From positions 1 through 64,000 of IMG/VR virus record IMGVR_UViG_3300046170_000162: a DNA stretch of 64,000 bases. One strand, 5' to 3'. The DNA is from a virus. The translations under genes were made by a program, and so were the position numbers. Below the pieces are notes generated by a model. The model did no database searches. It worked only from the letters and a program-made list of their open reading frames with translations, and had not been told where the DNA came from. Shown in pieces: positions 10,759 to 20,651 of the stretch (its first letter is position 1; each line of letters opens with the position of its first letter).

Positions 10759-10940
10759 TAATCCTGTTTCAAATGTAATAAATCAGTAATCAAATTCACC
10801 TCATTAAGTGTTTCGCTTAATGTGATGTCATTGATTTGTCCATTGTGATGTCTCTTATGTAGAGACGAAATGTACAACAGTATCGCTTTGCGTAAAACTG
10901 ACTGCTGTGTGTTGTTAAGCATTCTGGTTTTTAAGAACAT
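10758..10940 (-). CDS. Small helical protein (60 aa)
   Basis: 60 residues (LNNTQQSVLRKAILLYISSL; HNGQINDITLSETLNEVNLI). Strong GGGGGAG ribosome site. A TATATA box and a TGTAAATA element lie at about 10961-10973, so transcription may restart here. Function unknown. Confidence 0.6.
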   Translation of the reverse strand: MFLKTRMLNNTQQSVLRKAILLYISSLHKRHHNGQINDITLSETLNEVNLITDLLHLKQD

Positions 10941-10968
10941 CGCTCCCCCAAGCGAACGTATATACTAT

Positions 10969-11643
10969 TTACAATAGTGGAATAAGTGAGAACTGATCGT
11001 CAGGTAAATCTGACTGAGTATGAATATCGAACCCTAAAGTAATACGAGGTGTGTTAAATTCCTCGTGAACTACAACTCTGTGTTGCCTGTCCCACCCAGG
11101 CCCAAAGTACACATTGCCCACTTCATTCTTTATATTGTAGAGTGGTTTACCGTCTTGTCTGAACTCGGTTGTAGTGTTGTGTGGTTCGATACTAATATAA
11201 CCGTGGTAATCAAATTTGTGATCGTGCCACTTTAACACCTGATCGGGTGTGTGGTAGTTCATCCAACATTGAAACCATAATGGTTCATCAGTTTCAAGAG
11301 TGCTTCGCACAATAGTTTGAAGATCTCTGTTCAATAACCAGAATAGCGGACTCGGGGACGTAAGTGCGAATATGTTATAGAACCGATACCCAGAATGCTG
11401 GTTTTTGCCCCAATTCTTGATAAAATCCTCATCTTCCTTGCGTTTTTCATCATAATCGAATAGAGTAGGAAGATTTCCGATTGTCAATCCTTTATCAGTC
11501 AGCGATGAATCGAATCCTGTAAAAGTATTTTTGAAGAGACGATATGCTCTTCCCAATTGTGTGATCATTTCATCCTGTTCGTGGACGATACAGGGTGATC
11601 TCCAGAGAGTCCAATCCTCTCCAGTTTCAAGTAAGGTTGCCAT
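10969..11643 (-). CDS. 2OG-Fe(II) oxygenase-like protein with unusual HDH motif
   Basis: 224 residues from the ATG at 11643 (the longer frame overlaps the upstream gene). Core: LKWHDHKFDYHGYISIEP (about 138-154), GNVYFGPGW, QHRVVV with distal His188, and RITLGFDI with Arg200. This is the cupin-like oxygenase layout, but the proximal site reads H140-D-H142 rather than HxD. Last gene of the halogenase cluster. Likely hydroxylates or otherwise oxidises the same substrate as its neighbours; substrate unknown. Confidence 0.65.
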   Translation of the reverse strand: MATLLETGEDWTLWRSPCIVHEQDEMITQLGRAYRLFKNTFTGFDSSLTDKGLTIGNLPTLFDYDEKRKEDEDFIKNWGKNQHSGYRFYNIFALTSPSPLFWLLNRDLQTIVRSTLETDEPLWFQCWMNYHTPDQVLKWHDHKFDYHGYISIEPHNTTTEFRQDGKPLYNIKNEVGNVYFGPGWDRQHRVVVHEEFNTPRITLGFDIHTQSDLPDDQFSLIPLL

Positions 11644-12316
11644 AATTAGGATTGTATGAGGAACGAATGTCTGTGGGTGTTTTCTCACTCACATTTATAT
11701 TTACCACTAAACGTGGATTGAGTGTTGAGTAGGATGAACTGTGAAATAGATCACCCTTGAAAGCAACCGCTCTGCCCTTCTTAGGGGTGATTCGCTGCTT
11801 TTCAGTCCAAGCGTCCTTGTCAACCATTGCAGGGTATTCAAAGGCATCCTGAGTCCTCTCATTGTAGATGATTGTATCACCGTCAGTATCATTTAGATAG
11901 TAGATTACATTCCAAGAGTTAGGAACGTAACTATCAATGTGTGGCATTTGAACTTGATTGCATCCCATTGCAGGAACTGCATTGATTCTCATCCGTAGCA
12001 AACATTCAGCACTCAATGCTTCACGGAACTGAAGAGCGAGCGGCATAAACCCATTTGTAAGTGTTGAGCAATGTGATTTGTCACCGTACTCAATTTCATA
12101 CAAATAATGTAAGTTAGCGAACCCATTGCGAGGGTCACCAATAAACTCGGGGATGTCCGTGATTGCATTGTCCTTACGATACCAAGCAAGATCTGGATTG
12201 TTTGCACATAAGAGTAACCAGTCTTGATATACTGGTGGGATTATATCCTCAAAGACGATTACATCATCTAGTTTCTTATATGCTGTGTCAAATGGATTGC
12301 TGACTGTCAGTTTCAT
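11627..12316 (-). CDS. 2OG-Fe(II) oxygenase
   Basis: 229 residues. Clear facial-triad pattern: PHIDSY (His126, Asp128), NVIYYLNDTDGDTIIYNE as the strand pair before the lid, KGRAVAFKGDLFHSSS (His192), and RLVVNINV (Arg202 for 2-oxoglutarate). Same layout as phage prolyl-hydroxylase-like proteins. Overlaps the next gene by 17 nt. Substrate unknown. Confidence 0.8.
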   Translation of the reverse strand: MKLTVSNPFDTAYKKLDDVIVFEDIIPPVYQDWLLLCANNPDLAWYRKDNAITDIPEFIGDPRNGFANLHYLYEIEYGDKSHCSTLTNGFMPLALQFREALSAECLLRMRINAVPAMGCNQVQMPHIDSYVPNSWNVIYYLNDTDGDTIIYNERTQDAFEYPAMVDKDAWTEKQRITPKKGRAVAFKGDLFHSSSYSTLNPRLVVNINVSEKTPTDIRSSYNPNYGNLT

Positions 12317-12969
12317 TATGTGTAATAGGGTGATGTGTTGATCATTGATTGTTCATTCTGGATTTTCTCACTTGCTGTTTCCCAAGGTGCTGCCAACATC
12401 GGACGACCGTCCCATTTATTGTCAGAGTATCTACCATCTTGATCCACATAAGATACAAATGCCTGTATCTGTAGATCTCCCTGATATTTTGGTCTCCAAT
12501 GAAAATCTTTATGTCCTCTGAATACAATCATATCACCTTGATTCATCAGTAGGTCATACGATTTACCATCAATTTCGATGTAAAAGGGCCAATTAGTTTC
12601 GTCTCTTGTTACACATATATTTCCTACCCATTCACCACTCGTTCTGTCTCTATGTCGTACCAGATTCGTGCCTTTAGTATATACTCTAGCGTAACTAAAT
12701 GTCTGCCATAATTTACATCTAACCACGTCCTCAATCTGTTTCTTAATTACCTGTCCCATTGCTTCAAAACATACTGGTGAGTACATTGCAAAGGCACCTG
12801 GCATTATGGGATCGCTTGTGGGACCTGAAGTTGTCGCTTCAATTATGTTTTTAATCATAATGAATTCGTGCTTCAAATGTTCACAAGTTTCCTGTGATAA
12901 TGCATTACGAATTCGCCAAAGTTTACCGTTGGCAAATTCTTCGATTTTCTCGTCAATAATCACTTCCAT
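12316..12969 (-). CDS. 2OG-Fe(II) oxygenase-like protein
   Basis: 217 residues. LVRHRDRTSGEW (His106, Asp108), FYIEIDGKSYDLLMNQGDMI and GHKDFHWRP (His157) fit the oxygenase fold with an HxD...H triad. Start overlaps nothing but abuts the upstream gene (MEVII directly after it). Part of the halogenase cluster. Confidence 0.7.
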   Translation of the reverse strand: MEVIIDEKIEEFANGKLWRIRNALSQETCEHLKHEFIMIKNIIEATTSGPTSDPIMPGAFAMYSPVCFEAMGQVIKKQIEDVVRCKLWQTFSYARVYTKGTNLVRHRDRTSGEWVGNICVTRDETNWPFYIEIDGKSYDLLMNQGDMIVFRGHKDFHWRPKYQGDLQIQAFVSYVDQDGRYSDNKWDGRPMLAAPWETASEKIQNEQSMINTSPYYT

Positions 12970-13635
12970 TTAATGTTTGTTGTTTATAAGATCATCAGCG
13001 ATTCCGTGGAAGAAACCTACTATAGTTAGGCGAGAATCGTGTACATCTTTTCCGAAGAAATCCATACCACCGTGAAACTTTCTACCATCAAATAGTAAGC
13101 AACGATTGTATCGACTTTCAACACTAATTGATGTTTGATACATCGCATTACATTCTTCTCTATAGGTATCATATGCTGCTGCCGATTCAGTATCATCCTG
13201 AGCAAGTAATTGTTTCTTGAATTCATCTTCGAAACCTTGTCCCTTAAAATGTGGTGGCACATCGTAGATGGTTGTACCACGATCAGGTACAACTCCATCA
13301 TTCAAATAGATAACCATACCGACACCTAAGTGTGGTGGGTCTGAATGAATCCATCCACGTTTGTTGTTACCATCACACACGTGAAATGCAACATCAGCAA
13401 TATCAAATGCGACGAAAGACGGTAGATATGCTATAACCTTTCTGCATATGATTTCGTGTAGGATAGGATCAACTCCGTCAAGAAGATTCGACCTCATCCC
13501 AGGCCAATTGCCCTTGTTGGGGTGATCATAGCACCGAAAATACTGTTGCTGTTTCGCTAAGTTAACGACCAACGATGGTGTCTCGAAAAAATTATCGATT
13601 ACGATGGTTGGGCAATACTCTTCTACAAACTTCAT
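12970..13635 (-). CDS. DUF6445-like oxygenase-fold protein
   Basis: 221 residues. NWPGMRSNLLDG (about 43-54), RGWIHSDPPHLGVGMVIYLN (His97, Asp99), a GTTIYDVPPH lid and a later KFHGGMDFF and SRLTIVGFF match the DUF6445 family, a probable 2OG-Fe(II) relative often found beside tryptophan-type halogenases. Substrate unknown. Overlaps the next upstream gene by 4 nt. Confidence 0.7.
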   Translation of the reverse strand: MKFVEEYCPTIVIDNFFETPSLVVNLAKQQQYFRCYDHPNKGNWPGMRSNLLDGVDPILHEIICRKVIAYLPSFVAFDIADVAFHVCDGNNKRGWIHSDPPHLGVGMVIYLNDGVVPDRGTTIYDVPPHFKGQGFEDEFKKQLLAQDDTESAAAYDTYREECNAMYQTSISVESRYNRCLLFDGRKFHGGMDFFGKDVHDSRLTIVGFFHGIADDLINNKH

Positions 13636-14348
13636 TTTCTAAACCAAGGGAAAGGGCATTTCTTTTCTTTCTCACCAAAGATAATATCTTTAGCAAGGAA
13701 CGGTGTGAATTGTTTTACTGCCAGACGTTTATGCATCTGCAGTAACATTTCCTGTGGTGGTACTGATTTGGTTAACTTGAATGACTCTCGTAGATCTCCT
13801 TCTTTATAGAAAGCGAATTTATAAATTGGGTCACCGCGTTTAATCTTTACATCCTGTTCAGAATCACATACATTGATACCGAAAGATATAGGTCGGCACC
13901 AATCAGATAGATTGAACCAACCGTTTACTATTGTAAAGTTATTGTTTCTACTTGTCAAGGGATAATCTCTTGCTTCTACCCATACACCTTTCGATTTTGT
14001 CCACAACAATAATTGTGGTACTGAAATCTGTAGAGTCTTGATAGGTGGTTCTAAATCTTCTACCTTCAAATATTTCTGAATCTGCTGATCATTCAATTCT
14101 TTTACTGTAATATATCCTTCCTTGTTGATTACGATTGTCAAGTCCTTCGGATTGTACATAATAAACTCACGTGAGTTCTTATGTGTCCAAGCAGGACATT
14201 GCATATATGGTACGAATTTGTTTCCTTCGTACTCATCAATAACTTTCTTGGGTTCAATACCAATACCATCCAAACTTAGAGGTGAATCCCAACAGTTTAG
14301 AATGTCTTGACCACCGTCATACTGGTAGTAAAAGATCTCAATGCTCAT
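13632..14348 (-). CDS. Unknown cluster protein, related to the one at 15370-16155 (DUF6065-like?)
   Basis: 238 residues. Shares spaced landmarks with the 15370-16155 protein: a CP near the front (QCPAW vs NCPGL), P-x-D-x-x-I-x-x-N (NPKDLTIVINKEG vs APMDFIIRTNGDG), an aromatic W before a beta segment, and a G-P-I/L...F end (RGDPIYKFAF vs AGTPLAQFIP). It may belong to DUF6065, proteins that accompany halogenases, but I cannot confirm this. Confidence 0.55.
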   Translation of the reverse strand: MSIEIFYYQYDGGQDILNCWDSPLSLDGIGIEPKKVIDEYEGNKFVPYMQCPAWTHKNSREFIMYNPKDLTIVINKEGYITVKELNDQQIQKYLKVEDLEPPIKTLQISVPQLLLWTKSKGVWVEARDYPLTSRNNNFTIVNGWFNLSDWCRPISFGINVCDSEQDVKIKRGDPIYKFAFYKEGDLRESFKLTKSVPPQEMLLQMHKRLAVKQFTPFLAKDIIFGEKEKKCPFPWFRK

Positions 14349-14880
14349 AATTAAAATTTAGTGTAATTCTGTTTGTAGACTGTGTGGGATTCTGCGATGC
14401 GTGGTAAATAGAACCATCAAAAATAATGACTTTACCTGCCTCTGGTTTCTCTCTCCTTATTTCATTGTCTTCTTCATCAAAAAATACAGTTTCACCGTCT
14501 GCTGAGTTCACATAATATAGTGCAGTAGTGTGTGGTCTGTTCATATCCACGTGTGGCATATTATGTGGTGACTTTAGTTCACCTTGTGGTAACAATAGTC
14601 CACCCTTGATCCTAAACAGATTGTACTCGTGTGTCTCTACGAATGAAAACAGTAGTGGCATTATGATGTTACAAAACTCTGAGTGAGTATTTGTTTCTGC
14701 ATCGAAAAACAAATGTGCGAACCCCTGAGTTCCATTTGCATTTGGAAATCGGTTTCGCACTTCATCAGTATCTCTGTATGTGACATCCTCAAGGTAACCC
14801 CAAGGAAATCCAACATCTAACATCATTTGTTTGATCCTCTTCTGATATACAGCAGGGATCACATTACGAATAACTCGCAT
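14338..14880 (-). CDS. 2OG-Fe(II) oxygenase
   Basis: 180 residues, compact. MPHVDMNRPHTTALYYVNSA (His110, Asp112), KVIIFDGSIYHAS (His160), and RITLNFNYEH (Arg171) make a complete HxD...H...R set. Among the best-preserved oxygenases in the cluster. TAATG junction with the upstream 55-aa gene. Substrate unknown. Confidence 0.8.
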   Translation of the reverse strand: MRVIRNVIPAVYQKRIKQMMLDVGFPWGYLEDVTYRDTDEVRNRFPNANGTQGFAHLFFDAETNTHSEFCNIIMPLLFSFVETHEYNLFRIKGGLLLPQGELKSPHNMPHVDMNRPHTTALYYVNSADGETVFFDEEDNEIRREKPEAGKVIIFDGSIYHASQNPTQSTNRITLNFNYEH

Positions 14881-15047
14881 TAGTAACTCTGTTCACACTC
14901 CTCTAAGTTTTCTGAAAGGCATTCCATCGAAATGCTATCTGTATGATACGAATGGTAAATTCTTCCCCATACTACATCGAATTCTTCTTGGTTCAAGTCT
15001 TTGAATAAAACTTTACCATTGTAATAGACGTGGTACGATTTAGACAT
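14880..15047 (-). CDS. Small acidic Tyr-rich protein (55 aa)
   Basis: 55 residues (MSKSYHVYYNGKVLFKDLNQ; SMECLSENLEECEQSY). Rich in Tyr, with a Trp, two Cys and an acidic tail. Coupled to an oxygenase gene, it could be a carrier or substrate peptide of the tailoring enzymes, or simply unrelated. GGAGTAAC ribosome site. Inference only. Confidence 0.6.
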   Translation of the reverse strand: MSKSYHVYYNGKVLFKDLNQEEFDVVWGRIYHSYHTDSISMECLSENLEECEQSY

Positions 15048-15049
15048 TG

Positions 15050-15373
15050 TTACTCCTCCGTTTCATTTTCCTCTGATACATTACCAATAATTTCCATTTC
15101 TGGATCTGCAGCATCAATTTCTGCCATAGGCATATTGACATCTGTTTCATCACCCATTATATCACGTTTCACAATAAAGAGTGCATCGATAGCACCCTCC
15201 AATCTAGATCTCTGAGCATATGCATCAGATCTCTTTTGAAACTCAACTGTGGTGACACCGTATGGATTCAGTTTCTTGTTAGAGAACTCTGTATCGTAGT
15301 TGTCGATAATTTTATCAACTTCCCCCTTTTGAAGATGGAAGTTTTGGATCAATTCATCAAGTGTAAGACTCAT
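15050..15373 (-). CDS. Acidic protein inside the halogenase cluster (107 aa)
   Basis: 107 residues: helical front (MSLTLDELIQNFHLQKGEVD), middle FQKRSDAYAQRSRLEGAIDA, then a very acidic tail rich in D/E/M. No Trp. Overlaps the upstream gene by 4 nt. Function unknown. Confidence 0.65.
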   Translation of the reverse strand: MSLTLDELIQNFHLQKGEVDKIIDNYDTEFSNKKLNPYGVTTVEFQKRSDAYAQRSRLEGAIDALFIVKRDIMGDETDVNMPMAEIDAADPEMEIIGNVSEENETEE

Positions 15374-16155
15374 CGGTCAATTCCGTTGCTGTGGTGTTTG
15401 ATCGCTCTCATAGCACGAGCGACTTTGTGCGATACATCGTCATCGTTAGGATACTCTGCCTTCAATGAGTAATTGAAAGCATTTTCTAGATCCCAATCTT
15501 CAGTCGTTGCATTATCTATACGAATATCATACCAACTCTTGTCAAGTGTTTCTCTTGGCATTGGTATGAATTGTGCTAGTGGTGTCCCTGCCTTAACTAG
15601 AGTTTCACCATCTAGAACGTGCCAGATAAGTTGCACGTTAACTTGCATAGCAAATCTTGGATCATAGATCCCTGCAGTTGCTTCGAAACGGGACTCATTG
15701 TTCCAGTAAACGGGTGTCTGCAGAAAAATAATATCATCACTTGCTCTCACTCTCCACGGTGTTTCAAGTTTGATAATGTGTGCAAGTGATTCACGTGGAC
15801 TGTCTACCAAGGGTACAGTTTGGTCTGGTGGATGATCACCAACAAAATTCGCGTGTCTCGTGAACATTGTAGGAATCTCATACTCATAACCAACTCCATC
15901 ACCGTTTGTACGAATGATGAAATCCATTGGTGCTACTACAACATAACCCATACGAGTGATCTGTTTCAGACCTGGGCAATTTGCCACATTCATATTACCC
16001 CGAAAGGGGCATTTCTTGTTTCGCTCTTCCTTAGATTGCCAACGTCTTCTCACGGAACTCGTTGGTATCAAAGGATAATTCTCGACTAACCCTGGTTCTA
16101 GAGAGAAGAATCGCAACCAAGGTTTCTTTTTCTTATTCCTCAGGAAGTTGAACAT
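15370..16155 (-). CDS. Unknown cluster protein with CP and P-x-D-x-x-I motifs (DUF6065-like?)
   Basis: 261 residues from MFNFLRNKKKKPWLRFFSLE at 16155; a MVKT start at 16167 is possible. Follows the first halogenase with a 23-nt overlap. Contains KKCPFRGNMNVANCPGL (two Cys-Pro pairs), APMDFIIRTNGDG and a beta-rich C-terminal half (FLQTPVYWNNESRFEATAGI). Distantly similar to 13632-14348, suggesting duplication within the cluster. Confidence 0.6.
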   Translation of the reverse strand: MFNFLRNKKKKPWLRFFSLEPGLVENYPLIPTSSVRRRWQSKEERNKKCPFRGNMNVANCPGLKQITRMGYVVVAPMDFIIRTNGDGVGYEYEIPTMFTRHANFVGDHPPDQTVPLVDSPRESLAHIIKLETPWRVRASDDIIFLQTPVYWNNESRFEATAGIYDPRFAMQVNVQLIWHVLDGETLVKAGTPLAQFIPMPRETLDKSWYDIRIDNATTEDWDLENAFNYSLKAEYPNDDDVSHKVARAMRAIKHHSNGIDR

Positions 16156-17785
16156 TGTCTTCACCATAAATGTTTTCAAGTAAGAATTCATAATGTGTTG
16201 GAACTTCATCTGACTTGACGAATTCCTCAACCTCTTTAATGTAATCTAGACGCTCATTTCCAACGTGAGTGAGTTCTTCAACGTTTCCATATCCATTGAA
16301 CCTAGTTCCCAATCTCAGTCCCATACCTGCAGCGATGAAATTCATACCTGCAACGTTTGCTCTGAGTGGTCTACCAAGATCTAGAATATCTCCCATCCTC
16401 TCATACTCATCGTTCACCTTGATGTTACCATCAAACTGTTCGAGCATATACTCACATCTTTGTGATGCGTGTCTCCAGTATGGATTATCAGTTCGTTTGC
16501 TTAATGCATAGTGCATTGCTACGAAATGACTGAATCCAATGACCTCACGTTGTGCAGCATAATTGAACCATTGACGCTCAATACCTGACACATAACCCTG
16601 ACGACGATTGAGAACATCAACCAGTCTAAGGATATTCTCGTGAGTTGTCAACAGACCAGTGGATTCTAATGGTTCGATGAAACCATATGACATCCCGATT
16701 GCTACACAATTCAACTCCCACGCTTTCTCTCTATATCCGTGCTTAATATCAATTAGTTGGATTTCATATTCTTCTGGTTCCAGATCAAACTCTTGTTCAA
16801 TCCAAATTTCGAATTCCTGTCTTGCTTCTGTTTCCATAGCAAAACGTGATGACCAACAGTATCCAACTCCGATTCTATCCCACAATGGAATAGTCCACAT
16901 CCAACCAGTATTTGCACCGCGACAGTCTGTCACGTTGTGCATCTTTTCCTCACGTTGTTTCTGATTCTGGTAAGGAATACGAGCGAAGAATGCTTTGTCG
17001 TTTGGTAGATACTTCTCGAAACTAATATGACGTACAGACATCATATCCTCAATGAGTGCACCCTTAAATCCTGTGCAATCAATGAACAGATCTCCCTGTA
17101 CTCCGATAGTTTTCTTATCTGCGTCTAGTTTTACTGCTAGTTGTTTGATGACTCTGTTACTTTGAGATGGTGATCCACCTGCAGTAACATCTTTGACCAT
17201 TCCTCGTACATCACCTGTGATGTGTGTGAATCTATCCTGTTCAGCGAACGGATAACATACATCAGTCTTTAAGTATTCGCCGAATCTGTCAGCATCAATA
17301 TGGTAGGCAGTATCACTAGCAAAATCAAAATCCCTAATTCTCCCATCTTTGTTATCGTATTCTTTGTTATGTTCTGCCATACAGGTATTGCCTGCCAAGT
17401 AATACTTAGCAAATAACTCTGGCGGGAACTCATCAGGATATAGTCTTTGAAGATCAAAGAAATCTTGAATATCGTTCTTACAATTATATAGATCTGCAGG
17501 TCCAAATGGATACTGAAATGTAGATCCTACTTCACGAAAGTCTGTAAATTGAATACTGTTCTTATATGTTGCTCCTACCTTAGGCATCCAATCTACATCT
17601 TTAAGACCGAGTGCTCGCAAATACTTATTAAACTGTCCAATAGTTGATTCACCAACTCCGACTGGTTTATACTTCTTAGATTCGACCAGTACAACGCTGA
17701 TCCAAGGGCACAGTTTCAAGAGTGCTGCTGCAGTCATCCATCCAGATGATCCACCACCAACAATCACAACATTGTTAACTTGCAT
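16133..17785 (-). CDS. Flavin-dependent tryptophan-type halogenase 1
   Basis: 550 residues, the usual size of PrnA/RebH-type halogenases. N-terminal FAD motif VVIVGGGSSGWMTA (GxGxxG at 10-15), VGVGEST (42-48), catalytic Lys75 in GATYKNSI, GWMWTIP (the WxWxIP motif that hinders monooxygenation), and GFIEPLESTG with the active-site Glu. The family uses FADH2, O2 and chloride or bromide to halogenate indole rings; FADH2 must come from another reductase, none visible here. Whether free tryptophan is the substrate is unknown. Confidence 0.88.
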   Translation of the reverse strand: MQVNNVVIVGGGSSGWMTAAALLKLCPWISVVLVESKKYKPVGVGESTIGQFNKYLRALGLKDVDWMPKVGATYKNSIQFTDFREVGSTFQYPFGPADLYNCKNDIQDFFDLQRLYPDEFPPELFAKYYLAGNTCMAEHNKEYDNKDGRIRDFDFASDTAYHIDADRFGEYLKTDVCYPFAEQDRFTHITGDVRGMVKDVTAGGSPSQSNRVIKQLAVKLDADKKTIGVQGDLFIDCTGFKGALIEDMMSVRHISFEKYLPNDKAFFARIPYQNQKQREEKMHNVTDCRGANTGWMWTIPLWDRIGVGYCWSSRFAMETEARQEFEIWIEQEFDLEPEEYEIQLIDIKHGYREKAWELNCVAIGMSYGFIEPLESTGLLTTHENILRLVDVLNRRQGYVSGIERQWFNYAAQREVIGFSHFVAMHYALSKRTDNPYWRHASQRCEYMLEQFDGNIKVNDEYERMGDILDLGRPLRANVAGMNFIAAGMGLRLGTRFNGYGNVEELTHVGNERLDYIKEVEEFVKSDEVPTHYEFLLENIYGEDNVQLPEE

Positions 17786-17787
17786 AA

Positions 17788-19278
17788 TTAAGATTCTTCT
17801 TTCTTATATAGGGTAGATTGATAATACTCCAAAGGGGTTGGATAGTCTGGATCTTGCTTGGTTAAATGATCCATAAACATATCATCAAAGTCGGGTGATT
17901 CGTAACCATCGTGTCTGGCAATAACATCGAACCTATCAGGAATTATATCATATTCGTACCCACCTAGCAAGTAGAGAGCACCCTCGGATAGATAATTGAG
18001 GTTTCCGATCTGTTCAAATCTTTGTGTCAAAACATCAGGGAACTCCGATTGGAAGTTCATCTGATTATAATGCTTCCAGAATGGTGTGTCACTCCTAGGA
18101 CTCAAACAGTAATGTGCTAGTACAAAATCCTTGAATGACTGTAGTCTCCTCTTCGATCCCCAGTTGAACTGTTCTCTTATGAAACCATTGTAATAGTCAA
18201 TCTCTCTAGGAAGAACCTGTATCAGATTAAATAAGAACTCGTGAACTGAATATAATCCACCTGATTCTAGTGGTTCAATGAAACCACCTGCCAATCCAAT
18301 AGATACCACATTCTTTTTCCATATCTCCTTTCTTACACCTGTAGGGAACTTAAGGAATCTAAACTCTTGATCATCACCTACACCTAAATGCTGTTTGAAT
18401 TCTGTTAATGCATCCTCTTTCGATTGATGACGGGATGAGAATACATAACCCGTGCCAATTCGTGACCACGTGGGTGCTCTCCATACCCATCCACTGCTCA
18501 TTCCTGTGCAGTTTGTGTATGCAACTAACTCTTTTGCTTTGTCTTTATATGGTATTCTCGTTGTCCACGCTGAGTCACACATCAACTCATCTGTACCATT
18601 AATATCTGAATTCCACGCTTCCCACGTACTTCCTACCTCATTGCTGAGAATTGCATCAAATCCTGTACAGTCTATAAAAAGGTCTGCATCGTACCGATCG
18701 CCACCAGAAAGGCAAACTCCGCTAATCCCGTCCACGCTGGATTCAATCGAGACGACTGTATCTTCAATGAGTCTAATACCTTTAGGAATTGCATAGTTGT
18801 GTTTTAGATATTCTGCAAAGGAAATAGCGTCGAAATGGTAACCGACATTGAAGTGAGTGAGATCAGGAATGAGTTTCCCATTTTCTGAACTACGGACTGT
18901 ATCTGAATATATCAGACCCCAAGTCATACTGTCAACTTTTCCGATCTTTCTCCAAGTGTAGTAGTCAGCAACCGATGCAGGTCCCTCTGTCTTCCCAAAT
19001 GGATAATGGAATGGACCTTTTGGATTAAAGTTCTCAAACCGTACGCTATGTTTGTATGTGGCATCACATTTAGGCATCCAGTCGGAATCTTCCAATCCCA
19101 GATACCTAATAAAAGTATTAAAAAATTGCGTTGTCGCTTCCCCTACACCAATTCTAGGTTTTGTAGGAGATTCGATCAACACAATCTCTTTTGTATTACC
19201 AAAATGTTTCGCTAGTACACTAGCAGTCATCCACCCTGCACTGCCGCCACCGACAATACAGATTTTATGTAGTTGCAT
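17788..19278 (-). CDS. Flavin-dependent tryptophan-type halogenase 2
   Basis: 496 residues. ICIVGGGSAGWMTA, IGVGEAT (43-49), Lys76 in DATYKHSV, GWVWRAP in place of the canonical WxWxIP, and GFIEPLESGGLYS with the active-site Glu. Key catalytic residues are kept, but the WxWxIP change and divergence from its neighbour suggest a different substrate or site. Two nucleotides separate it from halogenase 1, so both are made from one mRNA. First gene of the cluster, directly after the tail-fibre assembly-like gene. Confidence 0.88.
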   Translation of the reverse strand: MQLHKICIVGGGSAGWMTASVLAKHFGNTKEIVLIESPTKPRIGVGEATTQFFNTFIRYLGLEDSDWMPKCDATYKHSVRFENFNPKGPFHYPFGKTEGPASVADYYTWRKIGKVDSMTWGLIYSDTVRSSENGKLIPDLTHFNVGYHFDAISFAEYLKHNYAIPKGIRLIEDTVVSIESSVDGISGVCLSGGDRYDADLFIDCTGFDAILSNEVGSTWEAWNSDINGTDELMCDSAWTTRIPYKDKAKELVAYTNCTGMSSGWVWRAPTWSRIGTGYVFSSRHQSKEDALTEFKQHLGVGDDQEFRFLKFPTGVRKEIWKKNVVSIGLAGGFIEPLESGGLYSVHEFLFNLIQVLPREIDYYNGFIREQFNWGSKRRLQSFKDFVLAHYCLSPRSDTPFWKHYNQMNFQSEFPDVLTQRFEQIGNLNYLSEGALYLLGGYEYDIIPDRFDVIARHDGYESPDFDDMFMDHLTKQDPDYPTPLEYYQSTLYKKEES

Positions 19279-19287
19279 ACCAAAAAG

Positions 19288-19806
19288 TTAAAGTTCTTCG
19301 TAGGTTCTTCCCCAGTTAGAATATCTCTCCCAACAAGGTTGTTCTTTCGATGATAGTTTACAGGGTCTTCCGACTCCAGGCTCTACAGCGTCAGACATAA
19401 ACTCAGCGATCTCTTCCTCAGTCATTGTAGGATCCATTGGTTCCTCAACTGATGAAGGTTGTGTCGTATTGTCTTTAACTGTCTTCACGTGATTATACCA
19501 AAGAGCATCCTCTGCTGTCAATGCTCTGCCTGCTGCAAGGTCTTTGTAGAGCATATCTAATTGTGCCCCTACCTCACCATATGCCACTCTGCGAGTTGTT
19601 GCAGGGTCTGCATATGTTTCAGTTCTCTTAACCCAAGTCATATCTTCTGCCGAAGGTGACCATTCAAGAGTCCACACATTTGTAATATCATCAGGTGCAT
19701 TTACCCACATCTGTGAGCAACCACGACCTAAGAATAATGCATATTCTTCCCCAGGTTCTACTACGTCAGCAACGTAACCTGTAAAATCCATTAATGCTTT
19801 TTTCAT
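19288..19806 (-). CDS. Tail-fibre assembly or structural protein (172 aa)
   Basis: 172 residues. The segment RRVAYGEVGAQLDMLYKDLA followed by LWYNHVKTVK is the QLDMxYKD pattern seen in small phage tail-fibre assembly proteins. It follows the glycine-rich fibre tip gene, where such chaperones usually lie. Cysteines near both ends. Role inferred. Confidence 0.55.
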   Translation of the reverse strand: MKKALMDFTGYVADVVEPGEEYALFLGRGCSQMWVNAPDDITNVWTLEWSPSAEDMTWVKRTETYADPATTRRVAYGEVGAQLDMLYKDLAAGRALTAEDALWYNHVKTVKDNTTQPSSVEEPMDPTMTEEEIAEFMSDAVEPGVGRPCKLSSKEQPCWERYSNWGRTYEEL

Positions 19807-19815
19807 AGTGACCCC

Positions 19816-20616
19816 TTACTTGTAGTTGATAACAGTAACAACACCATACTTACCGTTTGAACCACGGAAAGAGTGGAAGTGACCACCTGAACCACCTGAA
19901 CCATATGCTGAGTGATCTTGGTGGTTATGACTGAAGTTTCCACCATTTGGCCAACCAGCAGCAACCGATCCACCGAAGTGAGAAGGTCCACCAGTTCCAC
20001 CACCGTGAGCAGCGTGGGACTGTCCACCACCACCCCAGATATTCAGGTCTCCACCAGAACCTTCTCGTCCTAGTCCACCTGAGTGTGAGTTATTACGTGC
20101 AGCACCGTGTCCACCACCTGCTGACATATAAGGACCGAATGAAGATGATCCTCCATCACCACCACGGTTGAAATACCAAGTACCTCCACCGCCACCACCA
20201 ATCGTAATACCGACTGATGAAATGTTGGCAACTGACATCACACGTTCGGAGTAACCTCCTGCACCGCCTGATTCACCGTGACCAGCACCTCCACCACCGC
20301 CACCTTGACAGCGAACGTGAATATATTTTACGCCACTTGGTCTATTCCAAGTACCGTTACCAGTCCAGATTTGCATAGAACTGATGTTTTCTGAACTTAC
20401 GTCTGTCCAAGACATTGACGATCCGTTCGTGGTAAGAAACTTACCTGATTGACCTGAGACACTAGGCACGATCTGACTAGATGAACCTGACATCGTACCA
20501 TTAACGGTCAAGTTACTAACAGTCAGCGTACCATTAGCAGTAATATTACCAGATGCGAGGGTAAAACCACCAATGCCAGACAGGTCTCTAATAGATGCAA
20601 CTTTGAGTGTGCTCAT
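19816..20616 (-). CDS. Glycine-rich tail-fibre/adhesin protein 1 (266 aa)
   Basis: N-terminal fibre-type start (MSTLKVASIRDLSGIGGFTL), an NGTLTVSNLTVNGTMSGSSS repeat, then a glycine-rich domain from about residue 105 with many GGGG runs separated by Ser/His/Asn and ending YGVVTVINYK. Glycine-rich phage adhesins (T4 gp38 type) form polyglycine sandwiches at fibre tips and recognise the host. Has its own late promoter (20644-20651). Confidence 0.75.
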   Translation of the reverse strand: MSTLKVASIRDLSGIGGFTLASGNITANGTLTVSNLTVNGTMSGSSSQIVPSVSGQSGKFLTTNGSSMSWTDVSSENISSMQIWTGNGTWNRPSGVKYIHVRCQGGGGGGAGHGESGGAGGYSERVMSVANISSVGITIGGGGGGTWYFNRGGDGGSSSFGPYMSAGGGHGAARNNSHSGGLGREGSGGDLNIWGGGGQSHAAHGGGTGGPSHFGGSVAAGWPNGGNFSHNHQDHSAYGSGGSGGHFHSFRGSNGKYGVVTVINYK

Positions 20617-20643: not shown

Positions 20644-20651
20644 TATTTATA
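20644..20651 (-). promoter_or_regulatory. T4-type late promoter (TATAAATA)
   Basis: Perfect TATAAATA on the minus strand, 28 nt upstream of the fibre gene start at 20616. Confidence 0.8.

Follow-up and report, generated by a model that had tools for sequence, protein, structure and literature searches.

We analysed the first 64 kb of the 181,945-base virus record IMGVR_UViG_3300046170_000162 (hereafter, the window), which by its sequence resembles T4-like cyanophages, and focused on ten nearly touching minus-strand genes that run from position 19278 down to 10969. These encode, in this order, the flavin-dependent halogenases HalA and HalB, protein X1, a protein of 107 residues, the oxygenase O1, protein X2, and the oxygenase-like proteins O2, O3, O4, and O5. 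We put at roughly 0.5, just on the better side of even, the probability that they belong to a late protein-tailoring operon, similar to those of ribosomally synthesised and post-translationally modified peptides (RiPPs), set on the tail-adhesin module and having as most likely target the C-terminal tail of gp40L, a small protein encoded immediately upstream. The narrower proposal, that while virions assemble this multi-enzyme pathway of the virus halogenates and hydroxylates the Trp/Tyr tail of gp40L, so that gp40L would be the natural substrate of an enzyme of the VirX1 type, is plausible and more tentative.

The original prediction, made from the sequence of the window, had recognised this tight unit, and its open reading frames do lie at 10969–19278 with almost no gaps. 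Its inventory of halogenases, oxygenases, X1, and X2 stands, but it omitted the 107-residue gene (15050–15373). Its ideas on the substrate missed the best candidate, the upstream gene at 19288–19806 with a conserved Trp/Tyr tail. The features on which the argument turns are the following:

20644..20651, minus strand: late promoter element of the T4 type, TATAAATA, lying 28 bp before the start of Adh1; the unit probably begins here
19816..20616, minus strand: Adh1, Gly-rich tail-tip protein, 266 residues; homologues annotated "tail fiber assembly" or gp38
19288..19806, minus strand: gp40L, 172 residues, N-terminal phrog_1787 domain and C-terminal tail; candidate substrate
19291..19458, minus strand: C-terminal tail of gp40L, residues 117–172, not found in halogenase-free relatives
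19312..19338, minus strand: conserved aromatic motif PCWERYSNW in the gp40L tail (W159, R161, and W165 invariant; Y162 90%)
17788..19278, minus strand: HalA, flavin-dependent (tryptophan) halogenase, 496 residues
16133..17785, minus strand: HalB, VirX1-like flavin-dependent halogenase, 550 residues

The gp40L tail, gene order, and late signals

The N-terminal domain of gp40L covers about 115 residues and is followed by the tail. Relatives lacking a linked halogenase end where the domain ends, at 112 residues in S-RIM2, 116 in Syn33, 119 in P-RSM1, and 117 in S-B64, whose genome has a halogenase elsewhere. Tails of at least 15 residues are present in 93 of 94 distinct cluster-linked gp40Ls, with a Trp in 92, whereas 62 of the 64 distinct halogenase-free homologues have no tail and none has the Trp. 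Within the group of the window (n = 67), the tail ends in PxWxRYxGW (W-x-R-Y-x-x-W), as part of the pattern ...EP-x4-P...S...PxWxRYxGWxGY. The weighted frequency is 1.0 at E142, P143, W159, R161, and W165 and 0.90 at Y162, against a mean top frequency of 0.44 in the linker. The codons of the R, Y, E, and P residues vary synonymously, and thus the constraint acts on the protein. In Syn9 or Syn10, the C-terminus of gp40 reads PCWKRYPGWSGY. Other types of cluster have different tails, each with its own conserved Trp (IPAWL..., DPxWNxLP, GRxAWxPW). No other annotated gene of the window encodes the tail motif, and comparisons of gp40L with Pfam, PDB sequences, and PDB folds gave nothing convincing.

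Because this first sample had been gathered through the halogenase or X1, we repeated the scan using the gp40L N-terminal domain alone as seed. Among the best 80 of 232 matches (more distant relatives fall outside this set), all 61 distinct gp40Ls have a halogenase downstream, 60 of them within 1 kb, and all 61 have a WxRYxxW-type tail.

The gene order is conserved well beyond the window. Reference phages from several genera (Syn9, S-RIM44, P-TIM40, S-CREM1, Sf-FR1, Sf-FP1, S-WAM1, P-RSM6, S-SZBM1) have long fibre genes followed by one or more Gly-rich adhesins, by gp40L, and by a single halogenase or a pair of them; X1 and the small gene usually come next, and the oxygenases last. With X1 as query, a scan of IMG/VR found 80 loci, of which 59 are distinct. 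A halogenase lies immediately upstream of X1 in 58 of these 59, gp40L and an adhesin are found upstream in 50 of 51 distinct loci, and at least two oxygenases follow downstream in 52 of 52. The 42 long loci contain 311 oxygenases, about 7 per cluster. Proximity to tail-fibre genes, which the original prediction had pointed out in a single stretch, is thus a conserved rule across loci and not an accident. Halogenases located elsewhere in the genome also exist (S-B64, S-MbCM6, P-SSM2, S-SSM7).

Expression signals suggest that the enzymes belong with the structural genes. The element TATAAATA occurs five times in the 64 kb of the window for 2.9 expected, a count that is not significant by itself. 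In 122 related loci, the element lies less than 80 bp upstream of the start of an Adh (54), a gp40L (47), or a halogenase (26), and among the loci listed it is rare in the 8 kb downstream. The enzymes are therefore most simply read, from these sequence signals, as co-transcribed with late structural genes. The window also contains a perfect 12/12 match to a sigma-70-type promoter (TTGACA-18-TATAAT with TG; 19492–19521, minus strand) within gp40L, some 210 bp before HalA, which could be a chance occurrence or an additional halogenase promoter.

Candidate substrates

Several observations weigh against the gp40L tail as target. In the tree of the N-terminal domain, all cluster-linked gp40Ls fall in one clade (98/94). 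The association between tail and halogenase is therefore a single event kept since by linkage, and counting it as many independent gains was ruled out. AlphaFold gives a predicted local distance difference test (pLDDT) score of about 90 to tail residues 141–160; the tail may thus form an ordered part of the structure and not a free peptide. Two cluster-linked gp40Ls (loci L094 and L102) have Trp-less tails, and there is no one-to-one match between the type of tail and how many halogenases a cluster has. Finally, Adh1 of cluster-bearing phages has invariant lineage-specific residues (Y148, H178, and H201), and so could itself be the substrate. A proteome study of S-CREM1 reports 14 virion proteins, and the text consulted does not name gp40L. 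Separately, S-CAM4 (L204, 6007–6294) and locus L280 encode proteins similar to gp40L whose tail is acidic and aromatic (such as DWNVEEFVAYDFSKETFIEDLD) and which have no nearby halogenase; the gene in S-CAM4 comes directly after 2OG-type (2-oxoglutarate) genes.

The single clade and the partly ordered tail of the model would also fit a scenario in which the tail simply belongs to the structure of another adhesin lineage, while the enzymes occupy by coincidence the same cargo slot, between the adhesin and helicase genes, and are kept there by linkage. The slot is indeed variable, with other small genes occupying it in S-RIM2, Syn33, and P-RSM1. Yet shared descent of the slot accounts poorly for clusters that have changed orientation: in L094 and L102 the enzymes are encoded on the other strand, in L075, L086, and L106 the cluster points towards a different triplet of adhesins, and in all of them it still abuts the adhesin module. 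Together with the invariable linkage in the sample seeded independently of the enzymes, and with the several different Trp-bearing tail types inside the cluster-linked clade, this makes such a scenario very improbable. Two of these loci have clusters without gp40L, in which a different small protein closes the adhesin triplet beside the halogenases (L075 15027–15722, L106 13591–14229 (minus)) and is a possible functional equivalent of gp40L.

It is unlikely, but less so, that an adhesin (Adh1 or Adh2) is the substrate. In that case gp40L would serve as chaperone or adaptor, with its Trp/Arg/Tyr tail docking the enzymes onto the adhesin, and tailoring would diversify the adhesin loops. The adjacency seen at X1 loci would fit this reading too, and gp40L and Adh are paired in halogenase-free phages too, as expected of an adhesin chaperone. 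A docking tail agrees with the partial order predicted by the model, and the lineage-specific invariant positions of the cluster-linked Adh include E115 and E124 besides the three cited above. The composition of the adhesins speaks against it: no Trp is specifically conserved in the loops of Adh from cluster phages, in which Trp averages 1.0% vs 1.8% in controls. Furthermore, the cluster also occurs beside the different adhesin triplet, which the Adh profile does not match.

The enzymes might also form a classical set of auxiliary metabolic genes acting on small molecules such as free Trp or an indole product, an antibiotic, or a pigment precursor. PrnA and RebH homologues act on free Trp, VirX1 is active on many small aromatic compounds in vitro (PMC8407142), and protection from antibiotics or halogenation of metabolites has been proposed for phages (PMC2984593, PMC9964418, PMC10452541). 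Such a role would leave the gp40L tail unexplained. It also fits poorly with the putative late co-transcription with adhesin genes and with an adjacency that is nearly invariable even when the cluster is inverted, and our hidden Markov model (HMM) and PHROG searches recognised no biosynthesis, carrier, or export gene in the unit. We regard it as improbable.

The enzymes and their partner proteins

The remaining features of the unit are:

15370..~16167, minus strand: X1 (phrog_7084), about 265 residues, start approximate; predicted dUTPase-like fold
15050..15373, minus strand: small conserved protein, 107 residues, between X1 and the oxygenases
14338..14880, minus strand: O1, 2OG-Fe(II) oxygenase, HxD...H...R
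13632..14348, minus strand: X2 (phrog_17480), no function assigned
12970..13635, minus strand: O2, DUF6445 oxygenase-like protein, HxD...H...R
12316..12969, minus strand: O3, oxygenase-like, HxD...H; PHROG name "ferrochelatase"
11627..12316, minus strand: O4, 2OG-Fe(II) oxygenase, HxD...H...R
10969..11688, minus strand: O5 (phrog_2696), oxygenase-like, HxH...H...R
10940..10955, minus strand: weak terminator-like hairpin just past O5 (consensus match only); possible end of the unit

The Pfam profile Trp_halogenase (PF04820) matches both HalA and HalB (E = 1.7e-100 and 3.3e-85; 337 and 287 bits, cut-off 21) and spans most of each protein. In the alignment of 22 phage halogenases, the GxGxxG motif for flavin adenine dinucleotide (FAD), the catalytic Lys, WxWxxP, and FxEPLE(S) vary little or not at all, which upholds the earlier claim of two halogenases with Lys, FAD motifs, and Glu kept. 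In HalB, the catalytic positions are K75 in "ATYK" and E374 in FxEPLES. Both enzymes are thus catalytically intact by motif and predicted to halogenate Trp or other aromatic groups. Their best PDB match is in both cases VirX1 (6QGM): HalB aligns to it end to end with 493 bits and is 46.6% identical to the Syn10 gene, and HalA aligns to it as well. The enzymes can hence not be called undescribed, as had been proposed, since HalB is VirX1-like and prnA genes of cyanomyoviruses have been listed since 2010. In many clusters of large phages (L039–L048 and L156–L192, e.g., L162 18239–19767, minus strand), the oxygenase array has at its distal end one or two additional halogenases, encoded on the other strand.

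Among the oxygenases, O1 and O4 match 2OG-FeII_Oxy_3 above the Pfam cut-off and O2 matches DUF6445 (50 bits, cut-off 24). The HMM search gave no above-cut-off Pfam match for O3 and O5, which PHROG profiles place in conserved phage families. We read the conservation of the ligands from family alignments of 52–121 rows. The HxD...H triad and the distal Arg are 97–100% conserved in the families of O1 (H110-D112-H160-R171), O4 (H126-D128-H192-R202), and O2 (H97-D99-H188-R202). O3 conserves H106-D108-H157, with no clear assignment of a distal Arg. O5 conserves H155-x-H157...H203...R215, a three-His variant. The five oxygenase-fold proteins of the original prediction, one of them suspected to be a variant, were therefore recovered with their metal ligands. 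PHROG and RefSeq name O1 and O4 (14338–14880 and 11627–12316) "DNA endonuclease V" and O3 "ferrochelatase", as they do homologues with 2OG ligands. Both names look like misannotations, likely propagated over many cyanophage records: the O1/O4 family keeps HxD...H...R in 121 of 121 aligned rows.

The predicted model of X1 (pLDDT 84) matches the dUTPase fold (Foldseek E = 2e-4, probability 1.00, TM-score by target 0.64). By sequence, one of 43 members matched Pfam dUTPase, at E = 0.11 only. We therefore describe X1 as having a predicted dUTPase-like fold and do not class it as a dUTPase. An assignment to DUF6065 was rejected, as a single member matched at E = 0.15 and the family search of the phage's own genome was negative. 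dUTPases are classically trimers. VirX1 is a trimer too (PMC8407142), and this shared symmetry makes a putative complex between halogenase and X1 attractive by analogy.

All 14 strong matches of X1 in phage records follow a halogenase. In the bacterial collection, X1 was found only on a Prochlorococcus single-cell contig and on a contig resembling phage P-TIM40 in a Nonlabens assembly. As these cellular matches are on phage-like contigs, X1 is effectively phage-restricted. The Nonlabens contig (L282, NZ_RMVE01000006.1, from the Nonlabens xiamenensis assembly) has gp40L, two halogenases, X1, and oxygenases in a cluster close to that of P-TIM40, and is probably phage contamination of a flavobacterial assembly. 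X2 also occurs apart from halogenases in other cyanophages. X1 and X2 had been described as mutually similar, which our comparisons do not bear out: BLASTP gave no match between them and their profiles align with a probability of 24% (hhalign, E = 8e-4), a similarity that is at best marginal.

Some observations had been named in advance as counting against the original prediction. Loss of catalytic residues was seen in neither the halogenase nor the oxygenase alignments, co-conservation across cyanophages is strong when gene orders are compared, and the signals point to one late unit with the fibre and adhesin genes rather than to separate transcripts. Its suggestion that the enzymes act in series on one substrate is still a conjecture.

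We favour a protein-tailoring pathway directed at the gp40L tail, which would work as follows. The late promoter before the adhesin gene would lead to the joint production of Adh1, gp40L, and the enzymes. HalA and HalB, probably with X1 as partner, would add a halogen, whichever is used, to aromatic residues in a substrate protein; the same or neighbouring residues would be hydroxylated by the 2OG-type oxygenases. The likeliest substrate is the tail of gp40L, a folded domain carrying an aromatic C-terminal peptide as in the substrate of SrpI. The modified tail (or adhesin) might then tune host recognition or adhesin assembly. The large open active site of VirX1, which accepts bulky substrates (PMC8407142), is in favour of a protein target.

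Related systems and implications

The closest characterised enzyme is VirX1 of Syn10, with which HalB shares the catalytic Lys and EPLES motifs; the gene order is the same in Syn9. VirX1 was characterised on unnatural small substrates, whereas the window has a tandem pair of halogenases and a proposed protein target. The closest precedents for such a target are flavin-dependent halogenases acting on Trp of ribosomal peptides, i.e., SrpI with its proteusin substrate SrpE, and MibH/ChlH. SrpI adds bromine to the Trp at the C-terminus of a proteusin, a precursor whose leader is folded (PMC10858898, PMC12615548), and in SrpE, as in gp40L, a folded N-terminal part precedes the C-terminal Trp, which by analogy suggests gp40L as target. 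The domain-plus-tail architecture of gp40L and its adjacency to tailoring enzymes are compatible with a RiPP precursor, which makes it a candidate for such a modification. The system differs from RiPP clusters in its location beside phage adhesins and its many oxygenases, and our searches matched gp40L to no known leader family. As HMM and PHROG searches identified no protease or transporter among the genes of the unit, we do not file it as a RiPP cluster and say only that it may work like one.

Within phages, the adhesins resemble the gp38-type adhesins of the T4 superfamily in sequence and annotation: they are Gly-rich, follow long fibre genes, and have relatives annotated as gp38 or tail fibre assembly. 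What sets the present case apart is that Adh precedes gp40L and the enzyme cluster. Cyanophage halogenases are already known (PMC3037559, PMC2984593, PMC10452541, PMC9964418), with one survey finding them in 20 of 153 cyanophages (PMC10452541), and the prnA and 2OG-Fe(II) oxygenase genes listed among the auxiliary metabolic genes of cyanomyoviruses are the same genes as in our cluster. Those surveys treat them as separate metabolic genes and describe no link to a gp40L tail or a late adhesin unit. A literature search, mostly outside subscription journals, found no link of halogenases to tail fibres or virion halogenation, and nothing relevant on DUF6445, DUF6065, or halogenated virion proteins. 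The enzymes are thus not of a new kind. The novelty seems to lie in their genetic anatomy, with the locked unit of adhesin, gp40L, halogenase, X1, and oxygenases and with the tail motif.

Catalogues have included cyanophage halogenases from 2010 at the latest, and VirX1 is well known as a biocatalyst. The roles given to these enzymes in the literature consulted, protection from antibiotics or change of metabolites, are guesses. A candidate protein substrate that is strictly linked to them and bears an invariant aromatic tag gives these phage halogenases a specific and testable target. If the proposal is true, VirX1-type enzymes would be protein-directed halogenases, the virus would have a halogenated structural component tailored in a RiPP-like manner, and phages would use chemistry to enlarge the set of amino acids in the apparatus by which they recognise hosts.

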